From: a virus
Strand: one strand, 5' to 3'
IMG/VR virus record: IMGVR_UViG_3300021077_000008
Location: 1-50,183 of that record
Length of the DNA: 50,183 nt
In this document: positions 23,467 to 41,815 of the stretch, piece by piece
How the letters are laid out: each line of letters starts with the position of its first letter
Numbering within the stretch: the first letter of the stretch is position 1
Translations under genes and position numbers: made by a program
Notes under the pieces: model-generated
Told to the model about the DNA's origin: nothing
Database searches by the model: none
The model's input: the letters and a program-made list of their open reading frames with translations, nothing else

Positions 23467-25101
23467 TTAGTTATAACCATTTCCGAAATAGATATCATTG
23501 TTTTGGGAGTTTTGGAAACCTGAGCCATCATTTTGGGGGTTTTGGAAATCATTTGAAAAAGCATTTCCGAAAAAGTTTGAATGAATATCTTCCGAACTTA
23601 GAAATGTTGGAACGTCTTCATCTGAACCTTTATTTGATTTCCCAGAATCTTTTGCATTAGTTGTTGCGTCGTAAAATCCAGAGATTAGATAGTAGAGTCC
23701 AATCCACATAGAGCAAACAGTATCATCATTTTCATTTTGTCCAATTGCTTGCCAAACTCCAGGATTTTTCTCTTCAAATCTACTTAGTTCATAGAGTGTC
23801 TTCATATCATTTATCTGAAGCCAACCATTTTCTATATATTTTTTCATTAACAAAACGCCTGCCAGTTTTGTTTTTTTTGTAGAACGAATACCTAGGCCAT
23901 TCTTATCGAAATTTATAAGTTTGTCACAATCGTATTCGTAAAAAATCTTATCACAAACCAATTCTCCTATATCATTACTTTCAACCATCATCTCTGCTTT
24001 ATTATAATATTCTGAAATACCCACACATATACCAGCAAACGTTTCTGGGTCGGTTTCATTATTGCGAAAAACTGCAACTTGGTCTATATCTTTTTCGGAA
24101 TTTATTTTTAATACTTGAACAACAGAATAATCAGAACCAGTGCCTCTACTTGGATCGACCCCTAATACATATTCACAGCCATCTATAGGTAATTCATATA
24201 TCAGCATTGCTCCATTGTATTTATTTTCTATTGGTGTTCTTGTATCTATTCTTTCTAAAATTCCAGGAGTTATTAAGGTATTTGAACTTCCTTGGAATTG
24301 GCCCTCATGCTCCTGAAGGAACGCTTGTGTTGTCATATCTTTTTTTGTATCTTCTGCCCATTTTTCATCTCTATCTGGATGGTCTCTCCAAGTTATTTTA
24401 ATAGGATAAAAATTGTTTTCTCCTTTAACTGCCTTTGAATAAATTTCATAAAAATGATTCAAGCCTTTTGGCGTAGATACCATAATAAGCTTTGATTTTT
24501 TTCCAGATGACATAATAGAATAAACAGAATTCCAAAATTGCTCCCAGATATGCGGTGGCACAAAACTTGCTTCGTCAAGAAAAACTAATCCTGAAGTTTT
24601 TCCACGGACAGAATCTGACGAACTAGAAGCAGCTAAAATAGTCATTCCGTTTTCAAACTGAACAGAATTCTTATTCCAACCGCCATTAACAACCCCTTTT
24701 TGAAGCCATAGAGGAAATTTCTGAATCGCTATTTTAATTTTTTCCAAAGTATCTTTGGCTGTTGCTTCTTTGTTTGCTAATATAATAATATTGTCATCTT
24801 TTTCAAATAGAGAATAATGAGTAAGAAAAATACTAGTCATCATCCCCTTCCCGACCTGCCTAGCTGCCAGAAGACATATATGTTTTTTGCCATTTGGGGG
24901 GTCTGACATAGCTTTTAATACTTTTTTTTGATACCCATACAATTTTACTAATTGTCTGCCACCATCAATAGTTTGAATGTAAAAATAATGTTCCGCAAAA
25001 TATATTATATCATTTTTACATTTAACATATTCGTCTATTTGCTCTTTTGTGATTACTACCTTTTCTCCAGCAGCGCGAAGCGATGGATTTCCTTGATACA
25101 T
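23467..25101 (-). CDS. 17: Terminase large subunit, T4 gp17-like
   Basis: At 544 residues. The ATPase half has a Walker A-like RQVGKG at 81-86 (variant form ARQVGKGM), Walker B LVFLDEAS around 172-179 and a coupling motif MVSTPKG near 207-213. The nuclease half has GVDPSRGTGSDYS at 314-326, VESNDIG, and NDDTVCSMWIGLYYL with the late acidic residues. It packages DNA into the prohead and cuts concatemers. The C-terminus is Asn/Gln/Gly-rich and repetitive (NDFQNPQNDGSGFQNSQNND). Its start abuts the HNH gene (shared base), a sign of HNH insertion between gp16 and gp17. Confidence 0.95.
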   Translation of the reverse strand: MYQGNPSLRAAGEKVVITKEQIDEYVKCKNDIIYFAEHYFYIQTIDGGRQLVKLYGYQKKVLKAMSDPPNGKKHICLLAARQVGKGMMTSIFLTHYSLFEKDDNIIILANKEATAKDTLEKIKIAIQKFPLWLQKGVVNGGWNKNSVQFENGMTILAASSSSDSVRGKTSGLVFLDEASFVPPHIWEQFWNSVYSIMSSGKKSKLIMVSTPKGLNHFYEIYSKAVKGENNFYPIKITWRDHPDRDEKWAEDTKKDMTTQAFLQEHEGQFQGSSNTLITPGILERIDTRTPIENKYNGAMLIYELPIDGCEYVLGVDPSRGTGSDYSVVQVLKINSEKDIDQVAVFRNNETDPETFAGICVGISEYYNKAEMMVESNDIGELVCDKIFYEYDCDKLINFDKNGLGIRSTKKTKLAGVLLMKKYIENGWLQINDMKTLYELSRFEEKNPGVWQAIGQNENDDTVCSMWIGLYYLISGFYDATTNAKDSGKSNKGSDEDVPTFLSSEDIHSNFFGNAFSNDFQNPQNDGSGFQNSQNNDIYFGNGYN

Positions 25102-26039
25102 TATTTTCTTCCAACAAAAACATAATCGATTATAGGAAACAAATCCTGTGCTCTTTTTCTATCATCATCTTTTGTTATCTTAAAATAATCTGCTATTTTT
25201 AATAATTCTTCATTGTGCTCAATTAAATTCCAATAAATTATATCGCTTTTTATTCCATTTATATCTCCAGGAATCCACCTAAGATTAACAGGCAAATGTA
25301 GCATTTTCATATCTTCCACATTTTGCGGATTACCGACTCTTAAAGGAATAATATGATCTAACGCAAACCCAACAAATGGTTTAGTTCCTATTTTTTCAAA
25401 CACAGATTTGTCTATATATTGATATGTATGAAACTGTTTACCGCCAATAGAATTACGTCTTACATATGTATTAACGGTTCCTCTGACATTATAAAAAGCT
25501 TTAAAAATAGGGTCTCTAGCTCTTCTATTTTTTCTATACTTATTGTCTCTTCTTGTTTTTCGTGCCCTATGTTTTTTATGATAAGATTTATCCCAACCAC
25601 GTATTTTTTCTCGATTTTCTTCTCTCCATTTTGCACGGACTTCTAAACGATTAGGAGTTAACCAATACGCTAATCTTTTTTGAGCAAGAACTTTAGCCCT
25701 ATTAGCAATTCTATACAATCTATTATAATGAGCACAACAGACCTTACAATTAGATTCTAACCCATCCAAATGCCGTTTATTTTTATGAAATTCTGAAACT
25801 AATTTATGTTCATGACAAGTATTGCATTGTTTGGAAGTCAAGACTTTATATACAGTTGGATTTTTATATACTTTATTTGTCTTATTATATCGTTTTTTAA
25901 CAAATCCGGTTCGTTTTAATTCTTCAATACATTCTAAACAAACATATCGTTCGACATCACTGTCTGAATTTTCATAATCTGTAATTTGGTTGAAATGAGA
26001 TTCGTCTTTAATTTCGTGACATAAGTTACATTCTTTCAT
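25101..26039 (-). CDS. HNH endonuclease with zinc-ribbon N-terminus (putative homing enzyme)
   Basis: At 312 residues from the ATG at 26039. A TTG 42 nt upstream would add 14 residues, but the ATG gives the same start MKECNLCHE as the related enzyme at 36597-37268 (MRECNQCHE). Cys pairs (CNLCHE, CLEC, CNTCHE, CKVC) form two zinc-ribbon-like modules, followed by a very basic region. Near residues 227-260 is the HNH core LDHIIPL, LPVNLRWIPGDINGIKSD. It lies immediately before the large terminase, a common target for phage homing nucleases. A promoter box lies 55 nt upstream. Confidence 0.85.
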   Translation of the reverse strand: MKECNLCHEIKDESHFNQITDYENSDSDVERYVCLECIEELKRTGFVKKRYNKTNKVYKNPTVYKVLTSKQCNTCHEHKLVSEFHKNKRHLDGLESNCKVCCAHYNRLYRIANRAKVLAQKRLAYWLTPNRLEVRAKWREENREKIRGWDKSYHKKHRARKTRRDNKYRKNRRARDPIFKAFYNVRGTVNTYVRRNSIGGKQFHTYQYIDKSVFEKIGTKPFVGFALDHIIPLRVGNPQNVEDMKMLHLPVNLRWIPGDINGIKSDIIYWNLIEHNEELLKIADYFKITKDDDRKRAQDLFPIIDYVFVGRK

Positions 26040-26094
26040 TTCGAAAATTTCCTTACATAGTTTTTTGAAAAGGTCATTCAAACCTTTCTAGAAC

Positions 26095-26102
26095 TATTTA
26101 TG
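26095..26102 (-). promoter_or_regulatory. Late-like promoter box CATAAATA
   Basis: CATAAATA plus GTTCT, 55 nt before the HNH ATG; it may also serve gp17. Confidence 0.55.
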
Positions 26103-26188
26103 TAAATTTTTTGAAAATTCAAGAAAAATCTTCAACAAAGTAAACTTTAATGGCGTCTTAAAAGTCTTCTACGCTTTATAAAATTTCG

Positions 26189-36600: not shown

Positions 36601-37268
36601 TCGTAATATCCAAAAATAATGTTGAGTATATAAACTAGTTCAGGATCGTCATAAACGTAATTTAGTATATCATCCGATTTATGAATATTTTCAAGTCCAG
36701 GAAGCCATTGAAGATTGCAAGGAAGATGTGCTAATCTAACATGTTCTGGATTGTCTAAATTGAATATTGAAATAGGTATAATGTGGTCCAAATGCCATTC
36801 TTTACCTGTTCCTGGCCTGGGTCCAACTTTTTCGAAAATTGCATTAAAATCTATTCCATACTGTTTAGAACTCTTAGTTTTACCATTTTTGGAATATAAT
36901 CTAAACGCCCTTGATATGTTACATCTGAGTCTTTCTATTATCAAAAATTTAGGATCTGTTTTTCTTTTATTTCTTGTATAATTTTTATTTTGATTAAGTA
37001 TAAAATGTTTATTGTTTAATCTCCATTTTTTCATATCATCTTTATGTTCATTTCTATACTTTTCATAATATGTTTTTCTTTTATCTTTATTTTCAACAGA
37101 ATAAATTCTATGTTTCGCGTCTATTTCTTCTTTATTATCTAAATAATATTCTTTACTATTTTTATGACGACAATCTTTACAAACTTTTCGTAAACCATCT
37201 AAACAATCTTTTCTTTTGGTAAATTCTGTTTCGTCTTTTAATTCATGACATTGATTACATTCACGCAT
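36597..37268 (-). CDS. HNH endonuclease (putative homing enzyme)
   Basis: At 223 residues. A zinc-ribbon-like start MRECNQCHELKDETEF and CKDCRHKNSKEYY is followed by a basic region. The HNH core is LDHIIPIS at about 160-167, and HLPCNLQWLPGLENIHKSDD supplies the N and the final K/D. It is related to the enzyme at 25101-26039 (same two-part layout, ~90 aa shorter, lacking its second Cys module). It sits between gp14 and gp15. AAAGGT lies 8 nt from the ATG; the promoter box lies over the gp14 stop. Confidence 0.85.
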   Translation of the reverse strand: MRECNQCHELKDETEFTKRKDCLDGLRKVCKDCRHKNSKEYYLDNKEEIDAKHRIYSVENKDKRKTYYEKYRNEHKDDMKKWRLNNKHFILNQNKNYTRNKRKTDPKFLIIERLRCNISRAFRLYSKNGKTKSSKQYGIDFNAIFEKVGPRPGTGKEWHLDHIIPISIFNLDNPEHVRLAHLPCNLQWLPGLENIHKSDDILNYVYDDPELVYILNIIFGYYE

Positions 37269-37286
37269 TATAAATACCTTTTTAAG

Positions 37287-37294
37287 TATTTATA
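37287..37294 (-). promoter_or_regulatory. T4-late-like promoter box TATAAATA
   Basis: TATAAATA plus CTTAA, 18 nt before the HNH ATG. It contains the gp14 stop codon (37292-37290). Confidence 0.65.
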
Positions 37295-39072: not shown

Positions 39073-39080
39073 TATTTATT
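39073..39080 (-). promoter_or_regulatory. Late-like promoter box AATAAATA
   Basis: AATAAATA plus ATTAA, 24 nt before the ATG at 39048. It overlaps the TAA stop of the zinc-repeat nuclease gene. Confidence 0.55.
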
Positions 39081-40644
39081 AGAGTTCTTCCTCATCCTGT
39101 TGGTCTATATTTTCTGGAAATTTTTCGATATCATTTGAGAAATCTTTGCTTAACTTTTTATAAGGATTTTCGTAAAACATTTCAAGTTGTTTCGGGAAAA
39201 GTTTCGGGAAGAATTGCTTAATCATTTTTTCTATATTCTTAATGCCTTTTAGGAAATCTTTATAAGTTATTTCGAAAAGATTTATATCGTTATTTTCGCA
39301 ATAAGTTTTCTTGATTTTGTCCGAACGTTGAATATCTGCAAAAGTTTTCTCATTCTTTTCTGGGTCACTACTATAATAAGGTATAATATAATGTTGTTCT
39401 CCTTGAAATTCAATTAAACCAAGAAGGACTCCATTTTCGAAAACAGCAAAATCAAATGGTAACTTATTTTTTAGCCCTCTACAATCTTCAAATTTATATT
39501 GTGTGTCAAAATCAATTTGAAACCTTTTTAATATTTTTCTTACTTCTACTTCACCAACAGACGTATTACAATCAGAGCATCCCTTTCCTTGCAAATGAGA
39601 AGTAGGGGTTTGTTCAAACATTCCATGTTTAGGACAAATTATTTTAACCTTTGTATAGGAATTCTCATAAATAGTATCCACATAACTATACTTGAAATCG
39701 TGAACTTCATTTGCGTCATCTATAAATTCATCTGTCGTTTTATTTTTTCCAACACACTTTGGACAACCACATCCTCTTAAATGAACTTCTGGCAACTGCA
39801 TAAAAAATTTATTACAAGTATTACAATAAATTTCAAGTTCAACATCTCCATTTATATAAACAACATTATCATAATTAAATTTATTTCCGTGAATAGCAAT
39901 AGCCTCAGTTTTGAATTCGGCAGTGGTCTTTGTTTTAGTTCCTCCACAAGCATCGCACCCATGTCCAGCCAAATGATTTCCAGGTAGTTGTTCAAATTCT
40001 CCATGTATCGGACACCATATTTTAACTGGAGTATTACTATTTTTATATTCGACTAAATGATACTTATATTTTCCTTCATGAATTTCATCTGCTTCTTTAT
40101 TAAAGTCTTCTGTTGTTTTATTTTTTCCAACACACTTTGGACAACCGCAGCCTTGTAAATGGCTCGCCGCTAGTTGGTCAAATTCACCATGTTCTGGACA
40201 AATTATTTTAACCTCTTTGTCTCTACCATCATAATTCACAAGATGGTATTTATATTTCTCTCCGTGTTTTAATTTCGCATCTTTTATAAACCCATCAGTG
40301 GTCTTTTTTGGAGTGCTATAACAATTATGGCACCCATGACCTATCGCGTGTTTTCCGGCTTGTTGCCAAAATTCAATCCCGCAAATATTATGTTTAATTA
40401 AAATTTCTATTTTATTTCCTTTATATACAGCCTTTTCATAATCATATTCAGTTTCATTTTCAGGAAATTTTATAAAAAGTTTTTCTAAATATAGTTCTTT
40501 TGATATCGGAGCCTGGGAACATTCTCGACAACCACCGCCTTGATAATGATTATTTGCAGTTTGTTGAAATATATGACCTTTCTCTTTACATATAAGAGTC
40601 ATTTCATTTAATATACCAGGTATAATGTGCATCTTTATAATCAA
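39079..40644 (-). CDS. Zinc-repeat homing endonuclease, main part (5' end frameshifted)
   Basis: At 521 residues in this frame. Six consecutive modules of the form CxxxGxxFxQxxxxHxxGxGCxxC lie in residues ~15-360 (for example CPEHGEFDQLAASHLQGCGC). A nuclease domain follows from ~363: LPFDFAVFENG with Asp398, and LIEFQGEQHY with Glu412 and Gln414. That is a D...E-x-Q arrangement like Vsr-type/PD-(D/E)xK phage homing enzymes. The first residues MIIKMHIIPGILNEM belong partly to the wrong frame; the gene really begins at 40921. Confidence 0.7.
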   Translation of the reverse strand: MIIKMHIIPGILNEMTLICKEKGHIFQQTANNHYQGGGCRECSQAPISKELYLEKLFIKFPENETEYDYEKAVYKGNKIEILIKHNICGIEFWQQAGKHAIGHGCHNCYSTPKKTTDGFIKDAKLKHGEKYKYHLVNYDGRDKEVKIICPEHGEFDQLAASHLQGCGCPKCVGKNKTTEDFNKEADEIHEGKYKYHLVEYKNSNTPVKIWCPIHGEFEQLPGNHLAGHGCDACGGTKTKTTAEFKTEAIAIHGNKFNYDNVVYINGDVELEIYCNTCNKFFMQLPEVHLRGCGCPKCVGKNKTTDEFIDDANEVHDFKYSYVDTIYENSYTKVKIICPKHGMFEQTPTSHLQGKGCSDCNTSVGEVEVRKILKRFQIDFDTQYKFEDCRGLKNKLPFDFAVFENGVLLGLIEFQGEQHYIIPYYSSDPEKNEKTFADIQRSDKIKKTYCENNDINLFEITYKDFLKGIKNIEKMIKQFFPKLFPKQLEMFYENPYKKLSKDFSNDIEKFPENIDQQDEEEL

Positions 40645-40921
40645 ATTTTTCTAAATTTTCTGGAAATATTTCAAAAAGTTTTCGGAAATATTCTTCATGT
40701 TTTGTGATAGAATGATAACATAGATTACAACCATTTCCTTGCATATGATTATGTGCGGCTTGATGAAATTCTTCTCCACAATTATTACAAATTATAGCTA
40801 AAATGCTTTTATTGTTGACATAATGAGCATTTTCATAATTAAACTTTTCTTCATTTTCTGGAAATTTTTCGAAAAGTCTTCTGAAATATTCTTTCTGTGT
40901 TAGTCTTGGTTGACCCATCAT
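40604..40921 (-). CDS. N-terminal part of the frameshifted zinc-repeat homing endonuclease
   Basis: At 105 residues. It contains the first module CNNCGEEFHQAAHNHMQGNG, with closing CNLC, and the start of the second (FPENLEKFDYKDAHY) before ending at a TGA. A +1 shift at AAA-TGA restores YIKEMTLIC and gives the same 10-residue spacing to the next Cys as in the first module. The region 39079-40921 is therefore one gene of about 614 codons with seven modules. CCAGGAG lies 8 nt from the ATG, directly after a large RNA hairpin. Confidence 0.7.
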   Translation of the reverse strand: MMGQPRLTQKEYFRRLFEKFPENEEKFNYENAHYVNNKSILAIICNNCGEEFHQAAHNHMQGNGCNLCYHSITKHEEYFRKLFEIFPENLEKFDYKDAHYTWYIK

Positions 40922-40934
40922 TAAATTCTCCTGG

Positions 40935-41000
40935 AGGTTTGATTTGTTCTCTGTAGCGCGAAAGTTTTTACTCTTTCAGAACAAATCAAACCTGCTACAG
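40935..41000 (-). other. Structured leader with two interleaved complementary pairs (A-B-A'-B')
   Basis: On the minus strand, A = CTGTAGC (41000-40994) and B = AGGTTTGATTTGTTCT (40993-40978) are adjacent. After a 20-nt piece containing a small GAAAG/CTTTC hairpin come A' = GCTACAG (40957-40951) and B' = AGAACAAATCAAACCT (40950-40935). Both pairs are perfect complements. The two stems interleave with no linkers, so they probably cannot both form. This suggests alternative RNA folds just before the ribosome-binding site of the homing nuclease. Confidence 0.8.
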
Positions 41001-41065: not shown

Positions 41066-41815
41066 TCACCCCACCATGAAAGAGGGCGGAGTGGTTTCAA
41101 GAATAATAGATTGTAATGCCGCATCATATTCTTTTTCTCCACGATCCATTTGCACCTGACCAGAAATCGTTCCACCACCAGGAAGACCAATCTGCCCAAA
41201 TTTTCCAAGGATTTCTCCCCACAATATTTTAACTTTTGCGGTTGCTAATTTTTTCAAAAGTATATTATTATACAAATCTGTAGGATTTTCTGTTCTCCAT
41301 ATTATTAACATAGATGGATGAGAAATTTCAGGAGTTGGATAAATTCTTAACGTGTTTGTGTTATTGCTATATTGGCACGTATATTGCTTCATGAATGTGT
41401 TTGAAATATCGGCAAGATACATCATTGACATATTAAAAGATCCAATACTATATGCTCCTCCCATATTAGCTTCCATTCCGCCACCATTTCCAACAACGCC
41501 GCCATTATAAAATTGATTATATAATACTTCATGTTGGACAGAAAATAGACGATTTATGTCTGCGTCAGAATTATTTCCATTTATTTCTAAAACATTACTA
41601 ACATAACTTGGTAATTGATATGCAGAAACGCCAGCGGAAATGTTTATTGTTATTGCATCTTTATAAGTGGCGTCACCATATGTATATCTTAAAAAAATAT
41701 CAGTGCAATCTTCCACCAATTGAACGATTTGCTCATCCGCGACCTCGATGTTGACTACTGGCGATCCGAGCATAAGCCTAATATAACTAACGAAATCGTT
41801 CATATTTGTTATCAT
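41066..41815 (-). CDS. 13: Neck protein, T4 gp13-like
   Basis: At 249 residues. The N-terminal DFVSYIRLMLGSPVVNIEVA plus DEQIVQLVEDCTDIFLRYTY is the characteristic start of phage neck/head-completion proteins of the gp13 type in T4-like phages. The middle is Gly/Asn/Met-rich, and the C-terminus has LATAKVKILWGEILGKFGQI typical of connector-associated proteins. Order before gp14 supports it. The promoter box is 82 nt upstream. Confidence 0.75.
   Translation of the reverse strand: MITNMNDFVSYIRLMLGSPVVNIEVADEQIVQLVEDCTDIFLRYTYGDATYKDAITINISAGVSAYQLPSYVSNVLEINGNNSDADINRLFSVQHEVLYNQFYNGGVVGNGGGMEANMGGAYSIGSFNMSMMYLADISNTFMKQYTCQYSNNTNTLRIYPTPEISHPSMLIIWRTENPTDLYNNILLKKLATAKVKILWGEILGKFGQIGLPGGGTISGQVQMDRGEKEYDAALQSIILETTPPSFMVG

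Follow-up and report, generated by a model that had tools for sequence, protein, structure and literature searches.

Hairpins that sequester the Shine-Dalgarno (SD) sequence are known from the leaders of several phage homing nuclease genes, namely those of I-TevI, I-TevII, I-TevIII, segB, and Aeh1 mobE, and the late promoter of I-TevI is placed so that late transcripts omit the 5' arm of the hairpin (PMC2988022). The closest published case to the leader described here is seg43(25) of Aeromonas phage 25, in which a very stable hairpin also lies right before the nuclease SD (PMC2988022; L186:1417-1460). However, that structure is a simple 9-bp hairpin with a 6-nt loop, its SD is free, and it has no interleaved pair.

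Two systems outside this group are comparable in their logic. For the MS2 maturation gene, experiments cited in PMC6733600 showed that a transient structure of the nascent RNA keeps the SD open until the inhibitory fold forms. Delayed masking would be the likeness to the present leader, for which the trap is a prediction; MS2 is an RNA phage, and its leader is unrelated in sequence and shape. The timP toxin mRNA adopts mutually exclusive folds, one of which masks the ribosome binding site while the other holds a pseudoknot pairing, but it is regulated by an antisense RNA, its translation relies on elements that lie a long way 5' of that site, and it does not encode a phage nuclease (PMC11228461).

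The window analyzed here is the whole 50,183-nt stretch of IMG/VR record IMGVR_UViG_3300021077_000008. Like the T4-type nuclease leaders, its leader combines a stable hairpin that hides the nuclease SD with a late-type promoter just upstream. T4-type late transcripts lack the 5' arm, whereas the start predicted in the window lies upstream of the structure, which also carries an interleaved pair, A:A'.

Genomic setting of the nuclease gene

The window belongs to a distant T4-like myophage, in which genes for the tail sheath, terminase, neck, and sheath-stabiliser were recognized. The zinc-ribbon homing nuclease gene, whose domains are listed in Table 1, is flanked by a gp13-like head-tail adaptor gene (41815-41066) and a 244-aa ORF (39048-38314). 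The same nuclease, at 90% identity and with a near-identical leader, was found in L002/L003 (IMGVR_UViG_3300050025_000015), where it matches the PHROGs families homing endonuclease and HNH endonuclease. The gene is frameshifted in the window and its leader is intact, while the L002 counterpart is an intact frame of 545 aa. Decay, a sequencing error, or a programmed shift could each account for this frameshift.

Between the window and L002, identity begins at the promoter, and amounts to 58% for the adaptor gene, 87% for gp14, and 90% for the nuclease. Since identity starts at the promoter and the adaptor gene is divergent, the promoter, leader, and nuclease look like one mobile unit. The low identity of the adaptor gene itself (window 41066-41815 versus L002:2124-2864) would fit an allele replacement, perhaps through gene conversion driven by the nuclease.

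Table 1. Positions of the promoter, leader, and nuclease features on the window, with the segments of two related leaders
Feature	Position	Strand	Basis or remark
-35-like TTGACA, 17 nt before TATAAA	41043..41048	-	also kept in L002
Late-type promoter element TATAAATA, overlapping sigma70-like -10 TATAAA	41018..41025	-	copy distribution in window
Predicted transcription start, ~6 nt past TATAAATA	41012	-	T4 late promoter geometry and local sequence
C, UCUUCUG (DNA TCTTCTG)	41004-40998	-	pairs with SD region C'; has three to four bases in common with A
A, alternative 5' strand, DNA TCTGTAGC, RNA UCUGUAGC	41001-40994	-	sequence
B, 16-nt 5' arm of main stem, AGGTTTGATTTGTTCT	40993-40978	-	inverted-repeat search
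Small hairpin GAAAG/CTTTC, 8 nt between	40977-40973 / 40964-40960	-	folding
A', complement of A, DNA GCTACAGA, RNA GCUACAGA	40957-40950	-	sits in main-stem loop
B', 16-nt 3' arm of main stem, AGAACAAATCAAACCT	40950-40935	-	inverted-repeat search
C', CAGGAGA, including SD AGGAG (40932-40928)	40933-40927	-	folding; CC separates B' and SD
Nuclease N-terminal part, 105 aa	40604..40921	-	ATG at 40921; frame ended by frameshift ~40620-40640
Remainder of homing nuclease, 521-aa frame	39079..40644	-	DUF4379 and DUF723 repeats, C-terminal nuclease domain
L002 HNH leader: C UCUCCUA; A CUAUCGC; B GGGUUGGUUUGUUUU; hairpin UGGGA/UCCCA; A' GCGAUAG; B' AAAACAAAUCAACCU; C' UAGGAGA	L002:2935-3005		
G001 nuclease leader: A GUUUUCGC; C CUCGAUG; B GUUGGAAUG; hairpin AAGG/CCUU; A' GCGAAAAC; B' CAUUCCAAC; C' UAUCGGG			

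Architecture of the leader

The functional strand of the leader is the minus strand, on which the segments follow in the order A-B-hairpin-A'-B'. The initial annotation had described this interleaved arrangement, with a 16-nt B/B' pair, a 7-nt A/A' pair, no linker, and a hairpin between, and its coordinates and lengths proved correct. A directly adjoins B, and A' and B' either have one base in common (8-nt version) or abut (7-nt version). The SD does begin two bases past B', as had been noted, but it lies inside the main stem through the pair C:C', which had been overlooked. Because C:C' prolongs B:B', the two form one long stem of 23 pairs, with most of A in a short bulge and the small hairpin on top.

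B/B' is the sole perfect inverted repeat in the window with arms of at least 12 nt and a loop of at most 60 nt. None of 100 Markov-shuffled windows reached a 16-nt arm, the largest being 15 nt. Computational folding also bore out a structured leader, with -33.1 kcal/mol on the minus strand compared to -18.9 +/- 3.1 kcal/mol for shuffles (z = -4.55). Given B:B', the chance of a perfect 7-nt A:A' in place was approximately 0.0017, and the chance of a perfect A:A' in position per leader was approximately 0.001-0.002.

Promoter and predicted transcription start

The promoter had been called both sigma70-like and late-like, and this holds at the sequence level, where TTGACA-17 nt-TATAAA overlaps TATAAATA. 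Eight of the nine TATAAATA copies in the window are on the minus (coding) strand, and 7/8 of these sit 19-97 nt upstream of ORF starts; by this distribution, TATAAATA behaves like a late promoter of the phage. The start was placed by the T4 late promoter geometry. The predicted position lies 8 nt upstream of C and upstream of the entire element, not downstream of 40935, which the initial annotation had named as a ground for refutation. Late-like elements upstream of the stem were also present in the L002, L092, and L162 leaders. Because the late promoter is upstream of the whole element, the I-TevI mechanism, in which the 5' arm is removed, is not applicable here. Thus the earlier comparison with I-TevI stands for SD masking and fails for the timing mechanism, since the late promoter leaves the 5' arm in place.

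Two other nuclease genes of the window also have leader hairpins. Another HNH nuclease (window 37268-37294; L092:4935-4949) is preceded by a small hairpin, AUAAAUAC/GUAUUUAU. At this 37268 nuclease, TATAAATA is inside the 5' arm and the SD is in or next to the loop, which is the I-TevI arrangement in the same genome. An EndoVII-like nuclease (window 25101-26110), encoded upstream of the terminase gene, is preceded by a leader hairpin whose 5' edge carries CATAAATA, and this 26039 nuclease leader may resemble the I-TevI arrangement. The terminase ORF (25101-23467) starts right behind the EndoVII-like nuclease and possibly lacks some N-terminal residues, as its PHROG matches begin at 91/347 and 265/807.

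Related leaders in other phages

On the L002 contig, just upstream of the shared nuclease, an HNH nuclease gene has a second leader of equal layout. A search with the gp14-like protein led to the contigs G001/L092 and L094. The G001 nuclease (324 aa; L162, start 2143) is 39% identical to the window nuclease and has a leader of the same design. The strand order differs in that C is located between A and B in G001, whereas A is located between C and B in the others. In L094 (15250-15490), a leader of the G001 type precedes a 28-codon ORF that resembles a nuclease remnant, so this leader seems to have outlived its gene.

G001/L092 also encodes an HNH nuclease approximately 80% identical to that of L002. 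Its leader is missing both A and A' and forms a perfect 22-bp hairpin running through the SD; it acts, if at all, without A:A'. At the same site (L092:2560-2634), the G001 HNH nuclease shares the C-terminal tail SNDTENI...DFQEEL with the zinc-ribbon nucleases, which suggests a deletion that fused two neighboring nuclease genes.

Covariation was examined across three independent sequence types from one phage group, which are perhaps homologous; a MAFFT alignment of the leaders showed traces of common ancestry. Each helix was paired without mismatch in each leader. A:A' had two-sided changes at 3/7 positions: position 1 (C-G / T-A), position 3 (G-C / A-T / T-A), and position 5 (A-T / C-G). In C:C', the focal UCUUCUG:CAGGAGA and the L002 HNH UCUCCUA:UAGGAGA differed by G-C to A-T and T-G to C-G. 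B:B' changed between the first two leader types by C-G to T-A plus a paired deletion, and the small hairpin was wholly replaced in the relatives. At the base common to A and C, the zinc-ribbon nuclease leaders have G, with C as its partner in both A' and C', whereas the L002 HNH leader has A, with U as its partner in both. Such a joint change of one base with both of its partners is the expectation for two alternative pairings of that base, as read from these alignments. The pairing is therefore conserved in homologues, with compensatory changes in related phages, and the earlier idea of competing stems that control nuclease translation is backed by this covariation and by the recurrence in relatives.

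Specificity of the architecture

To rank stability, 78 SD-containing ORF leaders from the window, G001, L003, and L094 were folded. The five most stable were all homing-nuclease leaders (-28.5 to -37.7 kcal/mol versus a mean of -14.6 kcal/mol). A descriptor search of 2.8 Mb (both strands counted) returned nuclease leaders among the best matches, with scores of 28-29 for the focal type, 26 for the L002 HNH leader, and 22 for G001. The shuffled control of 2.86 Mb gave three matches at a score of at least 21 with a maximum of 23; since the G001 score by itself is within this range, support for G001 comes from where its leader sits, in front of a nuclease start, and from the conserved order. High-scoring look-alikes in L014/L018/L048 (49-nt loop), L170/L171, and L003:9544 are not nuclease leaders and were set aside as probable chance matches.

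The same descriptor recovered no additional nuclease leader with this architecture at approximately 60 more distant nuclease loci, and no element scoring at least 21 in four sampled regions of annotated phages rich in DUF723-type nucleases. Three leaders used as nucleotide queries against phage records gave nothing relevant. Two degenerate-pattern scans of viral contigs (approximately 90 stretches) showed the architecture only in the related phage L003. In a scan of bacterial and archaeal genomes, the HNH protein matched only one distant relative.

Known RNA classes were also compared. At a permissive threshold, all Rfam hits were to eukaryotic families, at chance level and well under the gathering scores, and no riboswitch or other known family matched. 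No terminator-like site was found between 38000 and 44000; B' is followed by CCAGGAGAAUUU without a U run, and an intrinsic terminator or attenuator was rejected. HDV-like ribozymes have the same strand order, P1-P2-P3-P1'-P2', but require the catalytic C in a linker that separates P1' from P2'. The A'-B' linker is zero nt in all three leader types, and no HDV-family Rfam match appeared at E<=10, both of which speak against this candidate.

Folding energetics and proposed mechanism

In the predicted ensemble, the SD was less than approximately 1-2% unpaired in all four leader types, except for one base of the G001 SD, and nearly all positions were below approximately 1%. On the basis of these folds and the alignments, the leader very probably masks the SD, which would repress nuclease translation. 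Because this layout recurs before three different nuclease genes in related viruses, it probably serves as a genuine control element that limits the amount of nuclease.

The nested fold exceeded the fold with A:A' in stability by 13-14 kcal/mol. The leader had been proposed as a possible RNA switch: competing folds are indeed predicted, but this gap disfavors an equilibrium switch. A role for A:A' therefore needs either kinetics or a bound factor. On geometric reasoning, a complete pseudoknot with both full helices was rejected, because neither A-B nor A'-B' has a linker, and A:A' could coexist with only the inner half of B:B'.

In prefix folding, A:A' was the best structure once A' is out, until approximately 10-14 nt beyond A' in the focal-type and HNH leaders, and until only approximately 2-6 nt beyond A' in G001. 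Afterwards B:B' replaced A:A', and then C:C' closed over the SD. Non-pseudoknot barriers out of the A:A' state were 10.5-15.3 kcal/mol; pseudoknotted paths, ignored in this calculation, could be faster. With A:A' held, clear opening of the SD was predicted for the focal leader alone (0.44-0.84 unpaired per base); in the other two leaders, the SD was poorly freed owing to other local pairing.

We propose the following sequence of events. A and A' are transcribed before B', so that A:A' and the small hairpin would form first on the nascent RNA. A:A' is incompatible with the full B:B'/C:C' stem, given the missing linker and the bases common to A and C. During the lifetime of A:A', the SD would emerge less paired and ribosomes could load. 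Refolding into the long stem, which folding and covariation indicate as the stable form, would then shut the message and leave the finished mRNA almost silent. Each transcript, driven by a combined early/late promoter that moves together with the gene, would thus yield nuclease only briefly and in limited amount. From the alignments and folding models, A:A' is rather likely to have a real role. The more specific model, SD-masking repression in which A:A' acts as a transient timer on the nascent RNA and delays masking, has in our judgment an even chance of being correct.

Alternative explanations

The strongest alternative is a plain SD-masking hairpin as in T4-type nucleases, with A:A' as a functionless by-product. 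The L092 leader has a hairpin without A:A', the nested fold is far more stable, and mobE, segB, and I-TevI are precedents (PMC2988022). However, three lineages have A:A', which changes on both sides at three positions; A and A' appear or disappear jointly, and the base common to A and C tracks both partners. We consider this explanation rather unlikely.

It is less probable still that the stem is a processing site, where RNase III or a phage endoribonuclease cuts the duplex, frees the SD, and turns translation on. In its favor, several leaders have stems of 22-23 pairs that mask the SD, the L092 leader, being fully masked, seems to require some release step, and mRNAs activated by processing are known among type I toxins (PMC11228461). 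This proposal leaves A:A' unexplained, its cleavage is a prediction, and the G001 stem is shorter.

A switch dependent on a ligand or protein appears improbable. Here, a phage or host factor would turn the nuclease on by stabilizing the A:A' fold, perhaps as a pseudoknot that includes the inner B:B' half. The mutually exclusive folds do have the small hairpin and inner B:B' in common, and timP offers a precedent in which the active form is a pseudoknot (PMC11228461), but the leaders contain no conserved unpaired core resembling a ligand pocket, their loops vary in length and sequence, and no Rfam family was matched.

A DNA-level element, such as an operator or cruciform bound by the nuclease or another protein, is very improbable: I-TevI autorepresses by binding an operator over its own promoter (PMC2988022) and an inverted repeat of 16 nt without mismatches could serve as a palindromic site, but G-U pairs are present in C:C' and B:B', the stem runs through the SD in every leader, pairing stays while sequences diverge, and an interleaved A:A' is of no obvious use in duplex DNA.

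Implications for phage homing nucleases

Beyond the single locus, we tentatively suggest a family of bistable, interleaved A-B-hairpin-A'-B' leaders that travels with unrelated phage homing nucleases and acts as a co-transcriptional timer or pseudoknot switch. In such a family, one strand would possibly choose between a loop partner and the SD, and give each new transcript a brief translation window.

Homing nucleases must be made yet kept scarce. SD masking of nuclease genes is already known, and the interleaved A:A' and the upstream promoter are the new variation. If the timer model is true, these leaders would represent a second solution beside the T4-type hairpin bypassed by a late promoter, in which the transcript carries a built-in delay. 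Two folds would compete for the same bases, and no factor would be required. The leaders would then be a compact, natural kinetic timer of translation, with natural variants that have or lack A:A'.
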